Shown here piece by piece: positions 19,785-57,329 of a DNA stretch of 64,000 bases (its first letter is position 1; each line of letters starts with the position of its first letter). The notes beneath the pieces are model-generated. The model was not told where the DNA came from and made no database searches. It saw only the letters and a program-made list of their open reading frames with translations. Both the position numbers and the translations under genes were made by a program. Source of the stretch: Tethya wilhelma. Taxonomy: Eukaryota > Porifera > Demospongiae > Tethyida > Tethyidae. Location: positions 10,496,373 to 10,560,372 of the forward strand of contig CAXIPT010000002.1 in NCBI GenBank assembly GCA_964030475.1, written 5' to 3'.

Positions 19785-22700
19785 TCAGAGAGACCTGTCA
19801 GTTAGCTTCATAGGTACCTTGCCAGCTGGTCTAGTGATGATCAGCTCAGCCGTCTCCAAGTCACTCTCACTGGTCTCCATCTTAAAGTTGAGCACCATCT
19901 GTGTGAGTATACAAGTAGCAATGAATGACCGTAGCAGCATTGTAATAAAATTATGTGCCTGTACCCATGTATTAGAATTATTATGTGGTTGTCATAAACA
20001 CTAGTAATATTTGAACACGTACAAATTACCTGCAGCAAAAGTAGCTTCAGTTCCAATTCTGCAAACCTTTTACCTTCAAAAATTATAACAAAACCTCGAT
20101 CAACCAATCTTGCCTCATTACAGTAATAAAATTTTAAAAAATAAGTAGTGTAGGAATGGGCAGTGCGGTAAAAAGTATTGGAACAAGGCACGGTCTCAAG
20201 TTCGGCACATGACTACTTCATTTGTTTTCTTGATCCCTCATACGAATTTAATTATAAGTGTCCTGTTGCGATGATCTGTACATCAGTATTTATTGCATTG
20301 GTTCGAATTTCTACTATAGCTGATCAATTGGCTAATCAATGGAGTAAACTATAACAAACAGGTATACAACCTAAACTGGACTGGCAGTCAAAATGAAGTA
20401 GTCATGTGCCGAACTTGAGACCGTGCCTTGTTCCAATACTTTTTACTGCACTGCCCATTCCTACACTACTTATTTTTTAAAATTTTTACTACTTGTTCAT
20501 TCACTTTTTTCAACACTACAGTGTGGAAACTATCAGAGACTGGTTAGTCTGTACAAAAGGTTGAGTAATGGCTACATGCACTTCATTATGCTGGAGACTA
20601 GTGCGCATGCGCATAAAATCCCACGTGGATAGAGAATGACCTTTGAACTCTATCTGCAAAGATGGCTGCATTGTAGTACATGAATTTATACGCTAGGTTT
20701 TAAAGCTTTCTAGTTTTCGTTTAGCCCTATTTATGATGAAAACGAGTATCAAGGAATGTAGTACACATGAAAAGAACTTACTTTGTGCCGTCAAAGTTGG
20801 CTCAACACATTCTGGTTCTCTGGAAATCCTTTTCAAGTAAGTCAGTTAGGAAGTAAGTTAGATGAACAAAAATGGCACTATGGTGGCTTCCCACTAGTGC
20901 TCTCTACGAGTGCTGCGGAAAGTTTTTGTGAGTTCTAGGCCTTGCATGCAGTTGATAATCTGTCATTGAAAGCTTCTGAGCAACTTTGAAGGTTCAATTT
21001 TGTTTGACTAGATTTTTATGGTGGCCAACATTTTGTATTGTGTCTATGGGACAGTCGACCCATTCCTACTATACGTACTACTGTACGTATGATATTATGT
21101 ACCGTAACATGATTTGGGACCAAATCCAAATGGTAGGATGGCAAAGGCACTTCTGTCGCTGCTGTTTCTGGTCCAACGACCAGGGTCAAACTCATCAGGA
21201 TTAGGAAAGATGGCCTCGTTTTTACCAGCTTCATAGTTGGAGTATAGGAGATCAGTCTGCATAAAGATCGAGAATTGAAGAATAAAAGTCATATTTACAA
21301 CAAGAAAGCTAGGTTGTACTAGTATCTAAATTGTCTTGCAGATCAATGTTTGTGAGTATATGTATAGCTAGCTACCTTTGCTGGGATGTGGTATCCCATT
21401 ATTGTTGCATCTTGACTCAGCACTCTGTTGTTGGTCGCATGGATACTTGGACGCATCCTAACAAATGCATGATTGAATGATCTCAGTATAATATATATGA
21501 CTACTGCACACTGATAGTGGTGTCTACATACCTGAATGACTCCATGACACATCCCTTGAGGTAGGGCATGGCTGCAAGCTGCTCAGCAGTGGGCTCTCTA
21601 GACGGGCCAAGGACTGACTTGATCTCATCATGGAGCCTTTCTTGTACCTCAGGCCTTTTGGCTACATCAAACATCATGAACGTTCCCTGGTTGGATGTCT
21701 ACATAAAATAATATTAATAAAAATCATGACTATTATAGAAGGCTATAATCATGATTATAAAGGCCAGCTCTGAATTACGTCGGCAAGATCAGAATGCAAC
21801 TAGCTTATTTTGTCACTCTCCAAGAGTCCTATTGCTACAGCTCACATTGTCCACCCCAGCTGCAAACATGTCTGCTGACAGGGAGATACATTCCTCCTTG
21901 GACAGCTTCCCCTCTCTCAGCCATTGCTCCAGCAGACCTTTGACCTCACTCTCTTCTTCTCCAGCTTCAATAGACTTTATGACTTCATCAGCATGCTTCT
22001 TGCCAATATCCAGGATAGCCTGTGTGTGTGTGTGTGTGTCAGTGTGTGTGTGTTTCATGGTGCTATAGCATTATATTAGCTACCTGATAACTGTTGGTGA
22101 TATCTTGGTACAGTTTCGTTGGGTAGACCTTGAACCATGGAAGGGTTGTCCTGAGGTCACCGAATGTGGAGACAAGTTTAGCTGTAGACTTATGTATTGT
22201 AATAGCGTCCTCACTGGGCTGGCCAACAGCACGCAAGTCAGTGCCAAACACAAACTTCCCAGTAGCTGTTTTGTAAGAAATAAGAGGGGAAGATATACGT
22301 AATTATATATGCCTTCACATTGTAAATGGTCAAAGCAAATGCATATACTGTGAGTGATTGAGAGACATGCAACCTGTAAGAGCTGCAGTATATCATCAAA
22401 CCTACATTCCACTAGTAACATCTTATTGAGAGGGTAGATGTCATCCAGCCTTCCCTCTTTGTCTCTGGCTGTTCTCAAGAAATCTATGAATCGACAGGCA
22501 ATGTCATTCAGCCCAGGGATGTAAGAATAGACGTTTCTTGGAAGCATTTGTTTTCCAATGGCAGTTCTCTTTCTTCTCCATTCAGCTCCCTCTCTAGCAA
22601 TTGAATTGAGGTTATAAAGACAATGCCTGTAACTTCCACTTCAAGATAAACACAGACCCCACTATAATAATGATTGTAATACTATCTTCCCTGGCATGCC

Positions 22701-27260: not shown

Positions 27261-27694
27261 GCTGTGTGTCCGTCACGTTCATAACAATTGTTGCTAAGGA
27301 GATATTTGGAGGAAGTTTCCCGGAAACGTGAGCCGTGCAATTGTTTGCTAGTTTTATTAAATTATTCTCCTTTGTTGATTTCTTTTAGAGGGAAGTTATT
27401 GGCAACAACGTTTCTCTCCTGTATGTTGTGGGGTCTCCTCCTTCTCTTTATGGCTGGTTATTTCTTCCTCCACTCATGGAACAATCTCTTTGGAGAGCTC
27501 CTCAGATTTGCCGACAGGGAATTCTACTCGGTATAATACAAACTCCCTTTTCTCTTGGTTAATAATTATTACGCTGTTCCCTTGCTCAATCTCAGGATTG
27601 GTGGACCTGCACTTCTTTCTCTCAGTTTTATCGCAAGTGGAATCTCTTGATTCATGATTGGATCAAAGCCTACATCTACCAGGACCTCAAGGAT
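26505..27694 (+). CDS. SOAT: Sterol O-acyltransferase A, middle exons (partial)
   Basis: Six exons in one frame with good gt-ag sites encode the core of an MBOAT-family acyl-CoA:cholesterol acyltransferase of the ER membrane. Landmarks are [19 protein letters not shown], the loop [32 protein letters not shown] (the family FYxDWW motif) and NLLIHDWIKAYIYQDLKD. Human SOAT1 has the same order. The N-terminal region is cut by the N at 26504. The C-terminal exons, with the invariant histidine, are not downstream on this strand. They lie at 30596-31015 on the other strand, beyond a 212 bp inverted copy of the last exon here. Gene broken by rearrangement or misassembly. Confidence 0.85.
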
Positions 27695-27775
27695 GTACGT
27701 TGCGAGCTAGCACCACACTTGGGAAGATATTTTTGTCATTTTGAGCTAGGCCTAGCATTAATGTGATGATTGTGT
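27564..27775 (+). repeat. 212 bp inverted duplication, plus-strand arm
   Basis: Reading both arms in full, this is an exact reverse complement of 31031-31242. It covers the SOAT exon beginning DWWTCTSFSQFYRKW plus parts of both flanking introns. The other arm ends one base before the N at 31243. Confidence 0.9.
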
Positions 27776-31030: not shown

Positions 31031-31242
31031 ACACAATCATCACATTAATGCTAGGCCTAGCTCAAAATGACAAAAATATCTTCCCAAGTGTGGTGCTAGC
31101 TCGCAACGTACATCCTTGAGGTCCTGGTAGATGTAGGCTTTGATCCAATCATGAATCAAGAGATTCCACTTGCGATAAAACTGAGAGAAAGAAGTGCAGG
31201 TCCACCAATCCTGAGATTGAGCAAGGGAACAGCGTAATAATT
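31031..31242 (-). repeat. 212 bp inverted duplication, minus-strand arm
   Basis: Exact reverse complement of 27564-27775, carrying a second copy of the SOAT DWW exon. It ends directly at the N at 31243. Confidence 0.9.
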
Positions 31243-31243
31243 N
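31243..31243. other. Single N at the edge of the inverted duplication
   Basis: The base next to the end of the 212 bp arm is N, which implies a contig end. With the N at 26504 it brackets one contig (26505-31242) whose orientation relative to its neighbours is uncertain. Confidence 0.8.
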
Positions 31244-50296: not shown

Positions 50297-51202
50297 CCAG
50301 CCAATCGTTCAAGAATCATAGCTTCTCTTTGTCCTGGTTCCACACACAGCTCTCAACTCACAGCAGAGACTGCATTAAACTAATATTATTTCAGTATTAT
50401 GGCTGTTCATGTGTACATCAATGTGATTAGTATTCAAGCCACTTGGCAAACAGTTCACTTTAATTGTGATAATAGTCTTTGTAGTGAAGCTACAGATGGC
50501 CAGCCACTTTAGAGCCTCTCTGAGCACTAATGGATACCCCATTAGAAGGTTATGCATCAAACATGTCCTCTGACACACTCACAAATGAACTGGAAGTAGA
50601 CCAGCTGTAATCCTCTGTAACCTCTATCATGCACAGCTAGGGACATATACAGCTGTATCTTGCACCTTTGACCCCCCACAGCTATAGTATAATACTGCAC
50701 ATATGACCAATTTCTTTTAAAACAGCAAAACACATCATGTAAGCAACTGATACGGGGACAATATAGACAGAAAACCAAACAAAAACTATCAAACAACACG
50801 TATACACAACCAACAGTAAGGCACAGCTCTAGTGGCTTGTGTATAATAATGACCCTGTGACACAGGACTAGCTATGGGTGGGAGGATAGGGAGAACAAAC
50901 ACATTAAGAGGCAGTCAGTGAGGCACACAAAAACAAAAATGTCCAGTGAAAAAATGCAGCAAGGCTGCACCAACAGCAGTTTGTGGTATAGCAGTAGTCC
51001 ATAGTGTTGTGTGTGCTGAGAGAGAGATATATAGAGCTAAGTGAGTGATGTGCACATGGAGACCTGTGGGAAAGGAAGCAATTAGTCCAAAAATGGCTTG
51101 AGAGGTTTCTTCAAAGAATTAATATCTGATTGTCAACAAAGGCTGTGGTGAGCTGCAAATATCGAATAACAGGAGAGAAGTGTGTATTGTGTGCCAGTGA
51201 CA
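50297..51202. other. Tail-to-tail region of kinesin and DOK-like genes
   Basis: About 900 bp of AT-rich 3' flank. No exon was recognised on either strand. Confidence 0.6.
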
Positions 51203-52156
51203 TCATGCCCGCGTCTCCACGTAAGAATCCTGTCTCAGTGAGATGATAGATCTTGGTGGGACAATGGGTGCCAAAGGACTGCTCCTACTGGAGGATGGGA
51301 AGCCACCAGATCGCTCATTTTCTTCATAATTGAAGGGGCTGTCTTCTACAATAGCTGGACTGTAGGCTAGTGAGCTGTGAGAGCTGGACACAGAGTTCTG
51401 CTGTGAAAGTCTGGGGGGTGTAGGAGGCGGATCAAACACATCACTAGTGAACCCCGAATCAGAGAAATGGCCGTCAGTAAGATCAATCGTAGAAGGAGAG
51501 AGTCGTTCCCCAAACGATGTCACGCTGGTTTGTCTGAACTTGTCCAGCGTTGGTTTCCGCAGCGGGAGGGGATGGGCCTTCATGGAGCTGATAGACTGCT
51601 TCCTCCGGTTCTTGTGCAGTGCCCAGTCCTCCAATGAGACTCCACCCATTCCAGCATCACATGACCTGGTCATCTCTCCCTCTCGTCTCAGTCTCTCGGA
51701 GGTGTTGGCCCAGAGGGGGGTGAGCTGGTTCATGCCCGACTGGAGGATCCTGCTCCTCAAGGTGCTGGAGAACTCCTCACAGCCATAGTGCTCTCGGGAG
51801 ATAAATGCCAACTCAGCATCGCTGCAGTCCTCCATTATGAGAAGCACGGAGGTGTAGATCTCAATGGCCGCCTTCAGCTCACGCACTATCTTTTGAGCAG
51901 CTTCCAATCCTGAAGGGATCGTGAAGAAGACAAAGTTGTCGGGAATGGAGTGCTTGCAGGTCTCAAACCACACCACGTTAATGTTGTACATCTCCAGGCA
52001 ACCCAACCGCCGAATGTTGCCAAAAGGAATTTCCAAAATGGTCTTTCCGTTTGAAGGTAGAACTGCAGTAACATTTGCAGGAGATGAAAACTTCAAGATA
52101 GCTTCAGTGTAGGCAACTGCTGGTTGCTGGGGGATGGTCACATGATAGACTTGTTC

Positions 52157-52189
<33 letters not shown>

Positions 52190-53782
52190 AGAGAGTGAAT
52201 GTTATTGTTGTTGATAAATATACCCAATAGAGGAGCTAGAGTGAGTGCAGGTGGTCTGTGGGAGAGTGTTAATAAGGTCTGCTGGTGACATTAAAGGGAA
52301 ATATTTTGGTGAGTCCATCTGCCTCAGTGTTTACTCAAGGTGGCTTTATTACAATATCAGACAATCTCTCTCTTCTCTCAGACTACCCACAAACCACACT
52401 TCAGATTCAAACTGTGTTGCTAAGGAACAGGATGCTTATGGTGGTCTTACCTTGTCCACACAGCTCACACAGCTTGGCCAGCCAGATATTCTTGGTGTTC
52501 TGATCGGGAGCCTTCAAGATATACTTTCTTTCCTCCGTTTCAATGGCAAACACGTGCTCATTTGTCCCAACTTTAGCGTTTGGACGGATCCCAACAAACT
52601 GAGACAAGTTGATGGTTTGTCTCTTCTCTCTCTTGCTGGCATCTCTGAAGTAGGAGAGCTCAATGGAGGATGGGTCACTCTGTATAGACCATGGTGTGTG
52701 CAAGTACCAGTTTATGCGGTGAATCATAACAATGGCATGTGCAATTCTACATTAGTTCCAAATTCTCGTCACATGAAATCTCACACTATGTGATACTGTG
52801 GTGTTTCTTTGGGTGCTAGGGGTGCACACACAGTGCATGCATGTCTTGTGGACACATGGCTTGAGGCAACACCCAATACCGAACCGCTCAGCCTCACACC
52901 ACTCCCAGCTGAAAAGCCTTGTTTTGCCTAGCCAAGAAATATTTGAGGCTGCTGGATACGCTCTCGTCTGTATGGCTGCCCAGGCAGGCCTGCTGCATGC
53001 ACTGTGACAGTGAATTAGCTACTAATGGAGCTATGTCTTTGTAGTCTGAACTCTTAAGATACATAAACCAGCCATCATCTTTGAAAGGACCATTTCCTAA
53101 TAGCAGCTAGCGTGGCACTTTACAAAAAAGAAGTAATTATGATTACGGACATAAAGTACAATATGAAAGAACAAATAGAAGTGCATTAGTCACCATGGCA
53201 ATGCTCTCAAGCATTTCATTATAAAGGGGAACTACTAGCAACATCCATCTATTGGCAATGTACTCCATTGCTGTATCTATATGACTAGCTCATAAAGTGC
53301 ATGTTACATGACAGCTAACGCTATAACCCACACAGCATACACCCATGCAATGATCAGTGGTGATAACTCACTGGGTCAGATCGCGACAAGACAAACCACC
53401 TCTTTGTCCATTTCTGCAGAGAAAGAGAAAGACAACAACAACATAATTTTAAAGCTCTTGGAGCTACAATATCCATGCTCTTGGTAATGATAGCCATCAA
53501 TGTTTACTACAGGCTACGCCCGCACTAAAGATACTCTGACTGCAGTAGTAAAGTAGTGCTGTGAGCAGTTCTATGACTTACCATTATAATACTCCTCAAA
53601 GGAGGTGTTTTGTGGAGATAACTCTCAAACAGGATCGTCTCCATGCCTCCTGCACTCACAGTAGCGCCGCTGCCGCCGCTGACAGTGATGGTCGGGAATT
53701 GTCCGCTGCCTGTGAACCCAGGCGAGACGGGCGATGCAGGGACGGGAGAAGAGGACGGAGATCTGCTCGAAGACACAGACAT
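51203..53782 (-). CDS. DOK/IRS-like adaptor with PH and PTB domains
   Basis: Four exons. The first (about 53582-53782) has a Ser/Pro-rich start then ETILFESYLHKTPPL; a small exon adds KWTKRWFVLSRSDP; the third continues SSIELSYFRDASKREK and ends NIWLAKLCELCGQ. Together these make a PH domain. The last exon holds an IRS-type PTB domain (EILKFSS-like AYTEAILKFSSPANV, ILEIPFGNIRRLGCLEM, GLEAAQKIVRELKAA) and a disordered tail with Pro-rich PPPTPPR and tyrosines (LAYSPA, FNYEENE, DSYVETRA). About 490 residues, like DOK1. Such proteins dock on phosphotyrosine receptors at the membrane. Its 5' exons are duplicated at 54441-55816. The acceptor of the last exon is a (CT)n tract where the duplication breaks. 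Confidence 0.88.
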
Positions 53783-53948
53783 AACTGACAGAATGTAAAA
53801 TACAGCTGATCTGCTCCTTCTAACTTGATAAGGCTTTATACTGCAAAAGTTTGTAATGACACGATAATTATATTCATAGCATACAATTGGCCTACACGGA
53901 TGACGTCATAGTAAAAAAAGAAAAGTGAAGCGCGGGAATTGACTGGCC
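53783..53948. promoter_or_regulatory. Divergent promoter region of DOK-like gene and RPA3, unit 1
   Basis: 166 bp between the start codons, repeated in unit 2 at 55817-55982. It contains tgacgtcat (53901-53909), a cAMP-response-element-type palindrome. Confidence 0.55.
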
Positions 53949-54197
53949 ATGGACACTGCAACCCCCAAGCCTCGCATCAACGGGTCAATGGTAGCCAAGA
54001 ATATTGGAAAGTATGTCAGTCTGGTTGGAAAGAACATCAGGGTGAGTTGTAGCACTGCTTGTCGTATATAAATTTGCATGGGTGTATACTGATGACATGG
54101 TTTGGTGTTCATTATCAGGTGAACCCCGGGGGAAATTCAATGATTGTTGAGACATCTGATGGACAGAAAATCACTGCCAAGTTCCCTCAGCCTCTGG
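53949..54197 (+). pseudogene. RPA3 5' fragment, truncated by the duplication junction
   Basis: Exon 1 (53949-54041) and exon 2 (from about 54120) are the same as in the intact copy at 55983. Instead of the donor after PQPL, exon 2 runs into (GA)n and reads Glu-Arg repeats to a stop at about 54322. It lacks the second half of the OB fold and is probably non-functional unless exon 2 is spliced to the downstream copy. Confidence 0.85.
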
Positions 54198-56231
54198 AGA
54201 GAGAGAGAGAGAGAGAGAGAGTAAGAGAGTGTATGTTATTGTTGTTGATAAATATACCCAATAGAGGAGCTAGAGTGAGTGCAGGTGGTCTGTGGGAGAG
54301 TGTTAATAAGGTCTGCTGGTGACATTAAAGGGAAATATTTTGGTGAGTCCATCTGCCTCAGTGTTTACTCAAGGTGGCTTTATTACAATATCAGACAATC
54401 TCTCTCTTCTCTCAGACTACCCACAAACCACACTTCAGATTCAAACTGTGTTGCTAAGGAACAGGATGCTTATGGTGGTCTTACCTTGTCCACACAGCTC
54501 ACACAGCTTGGCCAGCCAGATATTCTTGGTGTTCTGATCGGGAGCCTTCAAGATATACTTTCTTTCCTCCGTTTCAATGGCAAACACGTGCTCATTTGTC
54601 CCAACTTTAGCGTTTGGACGGATCCCAACAAACTGAGACAAGTTGATGGTTTGTCTCTTCTCTCTCTTGCTGGCATCTCTGAAGTAGGAGAGCTCAATGG
54701 AGGATGGGTCACTCTGTATAGACCATGGTGTGTGCAAGTACCAGTTTATGCGGTGAATCATAACAATGGCATGTGCAATTCTACATTAGTTCCAAATTCT
54801 CGTCACATGAAATCTCACACTATGTGATACTGTGGTGTTTCTTTGGGTGCTAGGGGTGCACACACAGTGCATGCATGTCTTGTGGACACATGGCTTGAGG
54901 CAACACCCAATACCGAACCGCTCAGCCTCACACCACTCCCAGCTGAAAAGCCTTGTTTTGCCTAGCCAAGAAATATTTGAGGCTGCTGGATACGCTCTCG
55001 TCTGTATGGCTGCCCAGGCAGGCCTGCTGCATGCACTGTGACAGTGAATTAGCTACTAATGGAGCTATGTCTTTGTAGTCTGAACTCTTAAGATACATAA
55101 ACCAGCCATCATCTTTGAAAGGACCATTTCCTAATAGCAGCTAGCGTGGCACTTTACAAAAAAGAAGTAATTATGATTACGGACATAAAGTACAATATGA
55201 AAGAACAAATAGAAGTGCATTAGTCACCATGGCAATGCTCTCAAGCATTTCATTATAAAGGGGAACTACTAGCAACATCCATCTATTGGCAATGTACTCC
55301 ATTGCTGTATCTATATGACTAGCTCATAAAGTGCATGTTACATGACAGCTAACGCTATAACCCACACAGCATACACCCATGCAATGATCAGTGGTGATAA
55401 CTCACTGGGTCAGATCGCGACAAGACAAACCACCTCTTTGTCCATTTCTGCAGAGAAAGAGAAAGACAACAACAACATAATTTTAAAGCTCTTGGAGCTA
55501 CAATATCCATGCTCTTGGTAATGATAGCCATCAATGTTTACTACAGGCTACGCCCGCACTAAAGATACTCTGACTGCAGTAGTAAAGTAGTGCTGTGAGC
55601 AGTTCTATGACTTACCATTATAATACTCCTCAAAGGAGGTGTTTTGTGGAGATAACTCTCAAACAGGATCGTCTCCATGCCTCCTGCACTCACAGTAGCG
55701 CCGCTGCCGCCGCTGACAGTGATGGTCGGGAATTGTCCGCTGCCTGTGAACCCAGGCGAGACGGGCGATGCAGGGACGGGAGAAGAGGACGGAGATCTGC
55801 TCGAAGACACAGACATAACTGACAGAATGTAAAATACAGCTGATCTGCTCCTTCTAACTTGATAAGGCTTTATACTGCGAAAGTTTGTAATGACACGATA
55901 ATTATATTCATAGCATACAATTGGCCTACACGGATGACGTCATAGTAAAAAAAGAAAAGTGAAGCGCGGGAATTGACTGGCCATGGACACTGCAACCCCC
56001 AAGCCTCGCATCAACGGGTCAATGGTAGCCAAGAATATTGGAAAGTATGTCAGTCTGGTTGGAAAGAACATCAGGGTGAGTTGTAGCACTGCTTGTCGTA
56101 TATAAATTTGCATGGGTGTATACTGATGACATGGTTTGGTGTTCATTATCAGGTGAACCCCGGGGGAAATTCAATGATTGTTGAGACATCTGATGGACAG
56201 AAAATCACTGCCAAGTTTCCTCAGCCTCTGG
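54198..56231 (+). repeat. 2.03 kb tandem duplication, unit 2
   Basis: The junction at 54197/54198 joins cctctgg of RPA3 exon 2 to the (GA)n that normally follows ttctgg in the DOK intron. The shared tctgg is a 5 bp microhomology. Confidence 0.92.
54441..55816 (-). pseudogene. Duplicate 5' exons of the DOK-like gene (PH domain only)
   Basis: Unit-2 copies of the first three DOK exons are intact, with their donors. Reading on, the next exons on this strand are the truncated RPA3 antisense and then unit-1 DOK exons. It lacks its own PTB exon. It could act as an alternative promoter splicing into 51203-52141, give a PH-PH protein, or be inert. Confidence 0.75.
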
Positions 56232-56532
56232 TCAGTTCAAACACAGCTACAGAGCAGATAATTTCAAGGTGTATTTACAGTTTTGACGACCTTTTACCAA
56301 CAGAGAGATTCCCTTGATCCCTATGTTGAAGTTCTTGGTCGGGTGGAGCAGGACTGCTCCATCACTGTTGAAAGAATATCCAACTTTGGAACTAATTTTG
56401 GTTGGCATTTTCTCTCTTAATCTTTGTATGTGTTTCACATAAGATTGGAATTTTACTTTAGATTTGCCGTCATACAATGAAGTAGTGAAACTCTCAATGG
56501 AATTTCCACGGATATTTCGTGCTCAAAGCTAA
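55983..56532 (+). CDS. RPA3: Replication protein A 14 kDa subunit
   Basis: Four exons encode about 117 residues, the usual RPA3 length. It begins MDTATPKPRINGSMVAKNIG, followed by VSLVGKNIRVNPGGNSMIVE (start of the OB fold), then RDSLDPYVEVLGRVEQDCS and FDLPSYNEVVKLSMEFP, closely matching the family's end, and stops at 56530-56532. RPA3 is the small structural subunit of the single-strand DNA binding trimer used in replication and repair. This is the intact copy; its first two exons are also in the upstream duplicate. It converges with HSPE1 (about 190 bp between stops). Confidence 0.93.
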
Positions 56533-56639
56533 CTCACCAGTGAAATCACTTAATTACTACAACTGAAAGCAAATACTCAATTCATACACACACATGAGTA
56601 ATAATTCAATGATTGATGTATATTTGAATACACAGCAAA

Positions 56640-56641
56640 TA

Positions 56642-56667
<26 letters not shown>
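56640..56667. repeat. (AAT)n trinucleotide repeat
   Basis: About nine aat units in the 3' space between RPA3 and HSPE1. Confidence 0.85.
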
Positions 56668-56672
<5 letters not shown>

Positions 56673-56720
56673 GCAGTTTAGTCAGCAAAAATTGAGTTTA
56701 AGGTTTGATGGTAACATCGG

Positions 56721-57329
56721 TTAGCTGTCAAAGACTCCCAAAATGTCTTCATCTCTGAACAAGAAGTAGTCCTGTGTCAAATGAGATGGTATTTCCTGTC
56801 ACACTCTCTAATGAAGTAATGATCTAACGAACACAAATTACCTTGTCGTCAAAGTTCAGTTTTGTCCCACCGTACTCTGGTACAAGGACTTGGTCACCTA
56901 CTTTAACAGTAGTCGGCTGGAGACTCCCTTCCTGCGAGCACATGTGCAGAGGATGTCATCATCAGCATTAGGGTACATTATCAACATTAAGGTACATCAC
57001 TAGCATTAGGGTCATTAGGGTACTGACCTTGTTCTTAGTTCCAGGACCCACTGCAATCACTGTGGCTTGGTTCACTTTACCTTGAGCCTTCTCTGGTATG
57101 TAGAGTCCAGTCTTAGTTTTCTGCATGTGGAAATAGACCAGTTGGCAATGGCACAATAAATGAGATACTAGTTAGTGTATCTTACTGATTCTGGAGCCAG
57201 TCTTTCCACCAGAACTCTGTTGAGGAGTGGTCTGAACGCCTTTAGAGATTTGAAAGCCTGCAGCAAACACACCAGACGCTCTCATATTAAGAGAATGCAA
57301 CAAAACACAAAGAAAGACGGTCATACCAT
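56721..57329 (-). CDS. HSPE1: Mitochondrial 10 kDa chaperonin
   Basis: Four exons. The first coding exon contributes only the ATG (57327-57329), spliced to AFKSLKAFRPLLNRVLVERL. Then come KTKTGLYIPEKAQGKVNQ (the mobile loop that binds HSP60), ATVIAVGPGTKNKEGSLQP and VLVPEYGGTKLNFDDKDYF, ending LFRDEDILGVFDS. It forms the lid of the mitochondrial folding chamber. An alternative upstream start in the same exon (MRRIHVEG...) would be out of frame with the second exon and was rejected. It shares its upstream region with HSPD1, as in vertebrates. Confidence 0.95.

Follow-up and report, generated by a model that had tools for sequence, protein, structure and literature searches.

A near-identical 2034-bp tandem duplication, probably real, that splits a head-to-head DOK-like and RPA3 gene pair in an assembly of the sponge Tethya wilhelma

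We analyzed a 64,000-nucleotide stretch of the T. wilhelma assembly (the window), in which a DOK-like gene on the minus strand and an RPA3 gene on the plus strand lie head to head with 166 bp between their start codons. A segment containing this start region is present twice in direct succession, and its edges cut both genes. The features of the locus, in window coordinates, are:

51203-52155, minus strand: last coding exon of the DOK-like gene (predicted PTB fold), single copy
52160-54197: unit 1 of the duplication, which starts with a 28-bp AG tract (self-BLAST and base-by-base comparison)
52160-52187: (AG)14 tract; its complement forms the polypyrimidine tract of the DOK intron 3 acceptor on the minus strand
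52451-53782, minus strand: coding exons 1-3 of the whole DOK-like gene, with the PH domain (53582-53782, 53372-53413 and 52451-52679)
53783-53948: unit 1 copy of the interval between the DOK and RPA3 start codons, 166 bp, with TGACGTCA at 53901 and GCGCGGGAA at 53930
53949-54322, plus strand: cut RPA3 (exon 1 53949-54041, exon 2 54119-54196, donor lost; stop codon 54320-54322)
54193-54197: TCTGG at the join, the same as at 52155-52159 and 56227-56231
54198-56231: unit 2 of the duplication, which starts with a 24-bp AG tract (self-BLAST and base-by-base comparison)
54198-54221: (AG)12 tract to the right of the join
54485-55816, minus strand: second copy of DOK-like exons 1-3, followed by the acceptor CCAG (54194-54197) and antisense RPA3 exon 2
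55817-55982: unit 2 copy of the start-codon interval, 166 bp, differing from the unit 1 copy at 55879
55983-56532, plus strand: whole RPA3 (exons 55983-56075, 56153-56230, 56304-56400 and 56462-56532; 112 aa)

The models of both genes were read from the sequence, and all splicing described here is predicted. The whole DOK-like gene has four coding exons on the minus strand that encode 474 aa, with a PH domain at the N-terminus of the protein (PF00169, E 5.8e-13). An earlier note on this DNA had placed the last exon at 51203-52141; we corrected its end to 52155. We found no Pfam family in this exon up to E 5, and a profile of the exon gave no match to PDB chains up to E 5. An AlphaFold model of the exon (mean pLDDT 66.8; block means of 82-95 across the first 140 residues) matched the PTB domains of EPS8 (1.3e-4), CCM2 (9.6e-4) and IRS-1 (3.4e-3), and it also matched talin F3 and PH domains, which share the same superfold. 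When the DOK-like protein was used as a single-sequence query, Dok-7 was matched at E 0.14; a profile of four homologues matched Dok-7 at E 5.3e-4 and the PH domain of SET binding factor 1 better, at 3.1e-5. By its modeled fold, the last exon appears to supply a PTB domain after the PH domain, an architecture that would be compatible with the DOK label, and we refer to the gene as DOK-like.

The RPA3 gene completed in unit 2 is a full-length member of Rep_fac-A_3, matching positions 1-105 of 105 of PF08661 (E 6.2e-24), and the fragment in unit 1 matches positions 1-55 only (E 7.2e-9). Exons 1 and 2 of the two RPA3 copies differ by one silent substitution. The donor of the cut copy reads GAGAGA in place of GTCAGT, and translation is predicted to read on to 98 aa. 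In the interval between the DOK-like and RPA3 start codons, TGACGTCA and GCGCGGGAA may resemble CRE and E2F sites. At 56824-57171 on the minus strand, tail to tail with RPA3, we observed exons of a chaperonin 10 gene (PF00166, E 6.1e-8 and 1.2e-5).

The two units form a direct, head-to-tail duplication of a 2034-bp segment. Window-versus-window BLAST aligned 52163-54197 with 54197-56231 (2035 bp, 99.853% identity, 3 mismatches, 0 gaps), and base-by-base comparison from 52188 onward yielded only three substitutions between the units (52198 A/54232 T, 53845 A/55879 G and 54184 C/56218 T). These results agree with the earlier description of a near-identical tandem duplication, offset by 2034, with three base differences and a change in (GA)n length. 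The introns of the two units are alike to the same degree as the exons, and no coding difference separates their copies of DOK exons 1-3. The differences lie close to the join: two of the three substitutions are 10 and 38 bp from it, a proximity with P 0.004 for two sites, and the third is 349 bp away, and the AG-length change sits at the join itself.

The tctgg microhomology that had been claimed at the junction is also present, since TCTGG occurs in the left flank, at the join and at the end of unit 2. On the left side of the join 5 bp are shared, and on the right side none. We computed a probability of ~0.005 for at least five shared bases at a random junction, and two other junctions that we examined had 0 bp each, against the 5 bp at this join. 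A microhomology-mediated tandem duplication is recognized by direct head-to-tail copies that lack long homology at their breakpoints and by shared bases at the join above chance; both features were found here. The window contains a single instance of the 64-base word across the junction. When the whole genome (124.6 Mb, 204 contigs) was searched at the DNA level with parts of the unit, at least two places were returned, those found being the two units, and copy counts from these searches are lower bounds. The right flank was single-copy in the genome search, as was the left flank apart from a 91-bp match on C6, and queries from both flanks and from two more parts of the unit revealed no separate allelic copy (haplotig). 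A genome-wide RPA3 family search gave no match, as did its 14 control genomes, and so carries no weight. A protein search with the adjoining gene gave 32 matches, the best with 77% identity over 55% of the query. Among the 7992 candidates sharing most words that were scored, its closest named relatives were from the sponges Amphimedon and Ephydatia, and no near-identical T. wilhelma protein from an independent assembly was found.

Both breakpoints fall at splice sites, a feature that the earlier note had overlooked together with the acceptor retained in the spare DOK copy. The left breakpoint is the acceptor of the DOK-like PTB exon, which on the minus strand reads as a CT tract followed by CCAG/AACAAG, and the right breakpoint is the donor of RPA3 exon 2, CCTCTG/GTCAGT. 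The earlier note had assigned cctctgg at the junction to RPA3 exon 2; the site is correct, but the exon ends at 54196 (56230 in unit 2), and the last G of TCTGG is the first base of the donor. As the reversed CCAG is contained within the shared TCTGG, the spare DOK copy retains both its polypyrimidine tract and its acceptor. In the C2 sample, the chance that a breakpoint falls no more than 5 bp from a GA/CT tract at least 24 bp long is 0.005, and such a tract at a breakpoint is predicted by a fragile tract and by a contig break alike. We considered an RNA-mediated origin, since both breakpoints lie at splice sites, and rejected it because the opposite orientation of the two genes speaks against it. 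We likewise rejected recombination between a pair of GA tracts, because no such tract is present at the native right breakpoint.

The exons of one whole DOK-like gene (with unit 1) and of one whole RPA3 (with unit 2) survive, and each therefore has its own copy of the start region. What is left over is an RPA3 fragment that lacks its donor and a DOK fragment that carries the PH exons and a splice acceptor, which bears out the earlier account of one truncated and one intact RPA3 and of a second DOK promoter with PH exons and no PTB exon. If spliced at the retained acceptor, the spare DOK copy is predicted to encode the PH domain plus seven residues before a stop, a PH-only product of 164 aa. 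The spare DOK start could yield this protein or, by skipping to the last exon, the normal DOK message; more generally, each spare start might feed a normal message through exon skipping, and the half-genes are presumably near neutral. A single AATAAA/ATTAAA hexamer occurs on the plus strand of 54198-57000, at 54324 directly past the stop codon of the cut RPA3, and a single one on the minus strand of 50801-54193, at 52350; such hexamers are too little to predict where transcripts end.

The strongest alternative to a duplication in the animal is an assembly error, in which one locus yielded two contigs, the second of them beginning at the GA/CT tract, and these were placed head to tail when they should have been merged. 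The differences between the units would then be alleles, different individuals or contig-end errors, and TCTGG would be a coincidence or an overlap at the join. The way the draft was made is in line with this reading: it was built from Illumina contigs, Hi-C/Chicago, Moleculo and low-coverage Nanopore data with SSPACE-LongRead and GapCloser (PMC11347921). The published T. wilhelma libraries come from more than one animal (PMC11347921), so low divergence could reflect two individuals. The published Twi-v4 has 557 scaffolds and 126.1 Mb, compared with the 204 contigs and 124.6 Mb of the assembly analyzed here, and its reported BUSCO duplication of only 2.5% indicates that whole-gene false copies are not rife (PMC11347921).

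To place the duplication among other repeats of this assembly, we compared with itself a sample of 264 kb around and including the window together with 50 kb of C1 (298,227 sequenced bases). We scored direct repeats of at least 300 bp within 15 kb, and counted a gap contact where an N lay within 60 bp of an end. The sample has 31 gaps, 27 of them a single N, and positions within 60 bp of a gap make up about 1.2-1.5% of it. Gaps were contacted by four of five rows at ≥99% identity, seven of nine at 93-99% and two of 14 at 85-93%; when rows were collapsed by hand into places, contact was seen at 8/10 at ≥93% and 1/5 below. The enrichment gave a Fisher probability of 0.002 by rows, which are not independent, and 0.09 by places. 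Because near-identical direct repeats concentrate at gaps, recent-looking repeats in this assembly are suspect as a class.

One of these pairs matches the form that the assembly error would take: two 1362-bp copies at L009:72-2796 (C2:10456444-10459168), 100% identical and head to tail around one N, are likely an unmerged contig overlap. From the flanking copies, we tentatively read single Ns as unmerged overlaps, and found no statement of a single-N convention of the scaffolder in the parts of the literature consulted. Other repeats in the sample took different forms. At L003:5441-9868 (C2:10401813-10406240) there is an adjacent direct duplication without a gap (~2.2 kb, 94%, 29 gap openings, 0 bases shared at the join), which may be a duplication of greater age or else an allelic pair that has been closed. 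An array with a spacing of ~450-520 bp, whose repeats are 95-97% alike, runs into a gap of 5,915 N at L012:2749-4085 (C2:10489121-10490457). In the window itself, a 212-bp inverted repeat (27564-27775 and 31031-31242, 100%), whose second arm stops exactly at the single N at 31243, may be another artefact of a contig end or else an inverted-repeat element that a gap interrupts, and a 103-bp inverted repeat (20122-20223 and 20391-20493, 97%) with a spacer of ~167 bp resembles a foldback element.

The GA/CT tract that bounds the duplication is itself a known spot of confusion in the assembly, because a chimera runs through it. When extended, the 91-bp match of the left flank on C6 covers 96 bp of the last DOK exon along with a CT tract: at L046:1446-1592 (C6:6050149-6053239), a 46-bp CT tract in unrelated sequence is followed by CCAG, 96 bp of this exon and then one N. 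Most likely, the end of a contig was carried on through the repeat and into a wrong locus. The earlier note had argued that a clean microhomology junction speaks for a real duplication and not for an artefact; the microhomology stands, but the gap-side repeats and this chimera weaken the conclusion drawn from it.

Several features of the duplication nevertheless fit poorly with an assembly error. There is no N at the join, the nearest being 22,954 bp to the left and ~26.7 kb to the right, and the duplication is among the three of 14 rows at ≥93% that contact no gap. Of the four gap-side pairs at ≥99%, only one is a plain adjacent pair, the head-to-tail copies around an N, and the other three contact the gap with one copy only. 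The C6 chimera follows a long shared repeat, whereas the duplication join shares only 5 bp, a microhomology with a chance of 0.005 and, in our judgement, shorter than any obvious assembler overlap. The divergence between the units matches neither class of gap-side pair, although control pairs and junctions for these comparisons are few: the four pairs at ≥99% have 1 mismatch in 3667 bp, a rate at which at least three in 2034 bp would be expected with P 0.019, and 3/2034 is far below the divergence of the 93.7-97.4% gap-side pairs, such that a divergence of 2.6% or more is excluded. The clustering of differences at the join does not separate the two readings, as contig-end errors would look alike. 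Taken together, we regard an assembly error as a credible but lesser possibility. An older duplication kept alike by gene conversion that ended near the unit edges would account for the two substitutions close to those edges, with the third 349 bp in, but the differences number only three, introns and exons are equally alike and no datum calls for age, making this explanation very improbable.

We therefore favor, with some reserve, a partial tandem duplication that is real, mediated by microhomology and very recent, and that may still be polymorphic; its presence in the animal is probable but unproven. We propose that the event could have begun at the GA/CT tract within the acceptor of DOK intron 3, where a break or a stalled fork was joined or restarted via the 5-bp TCTGG microhomology where RPA3 exon 2 ends; this would have copied the 2034-bp interval twice. 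Synthesis near the join was perhaps error-prone, since no more than 38 bp separate the join from the AG-length change and from two of the three substitutions. Provided that the outer copies represent the ancestral state, these changes arose at the join, as error-prone repair predicts (PMC5413072). Beyond this, it is conceivable, though we consider the combination unlikely as a whole, that the duplication was caught early and provided both members of a tightly coupled head-to-head gene pair with separate copies of their shared promoter, that a PH-only adaptor is made from the spare DOK promoter by way of the acceptor that the microhomology itself preserved, and that error-prone template switching at a splice-site GA/CT tract left mutations still visible at the join.

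If the duplication is real, it provides a base-resolved case from a sponge in which one junction doubles a bidirectional start region and separates two genes with neither lost. If it is false, it warns against taking GA-tract chimeras or duplications of recent appearance in this assembly for gene gains. Judged by title, none of the sponge papers returned by a literature search dealt with tandem duplication and microhomology. The type of event is well known, and false duplications in drafts are equally documented, with gaps between copies as a main sign and half or lower read depth, discordant linked reads and one-copy k-mers as further ones (PMC9516828). Like those false duplications, the units described here are adjacent near-identical copies that split genes in an unphased draft; unlike them, they have no N between or near them. 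In yeast, microhomology-mediated end joining is mutagenic to flanking DNA (PMC5413072), and the sponge locus likewise combines a microhomology join with mutations in the flanking DNA. The yeast work used repeats of at least 15 bp and reporters kilobases away, whereas the sponge join has 5 bp and three unpolarized substitutions. In Drosophila genomes, Li and colleagues identified 1,920 tandem duplications (PMC6380325), and in Drosophila yakuba partial tandem duplications produce gene fragments and chimeric structures (PMC5460883). Unlike the D. yakuba cases, which were studied with population RNA-seq, the sponge case is known from the sequence of one assembly and concerns a head-to-head pair cut on both sides; like them, it sets the duplicated 5' part of a gene, with its promoter, beside foreign sequence, with the chance of a new transcript (PMC5460883).
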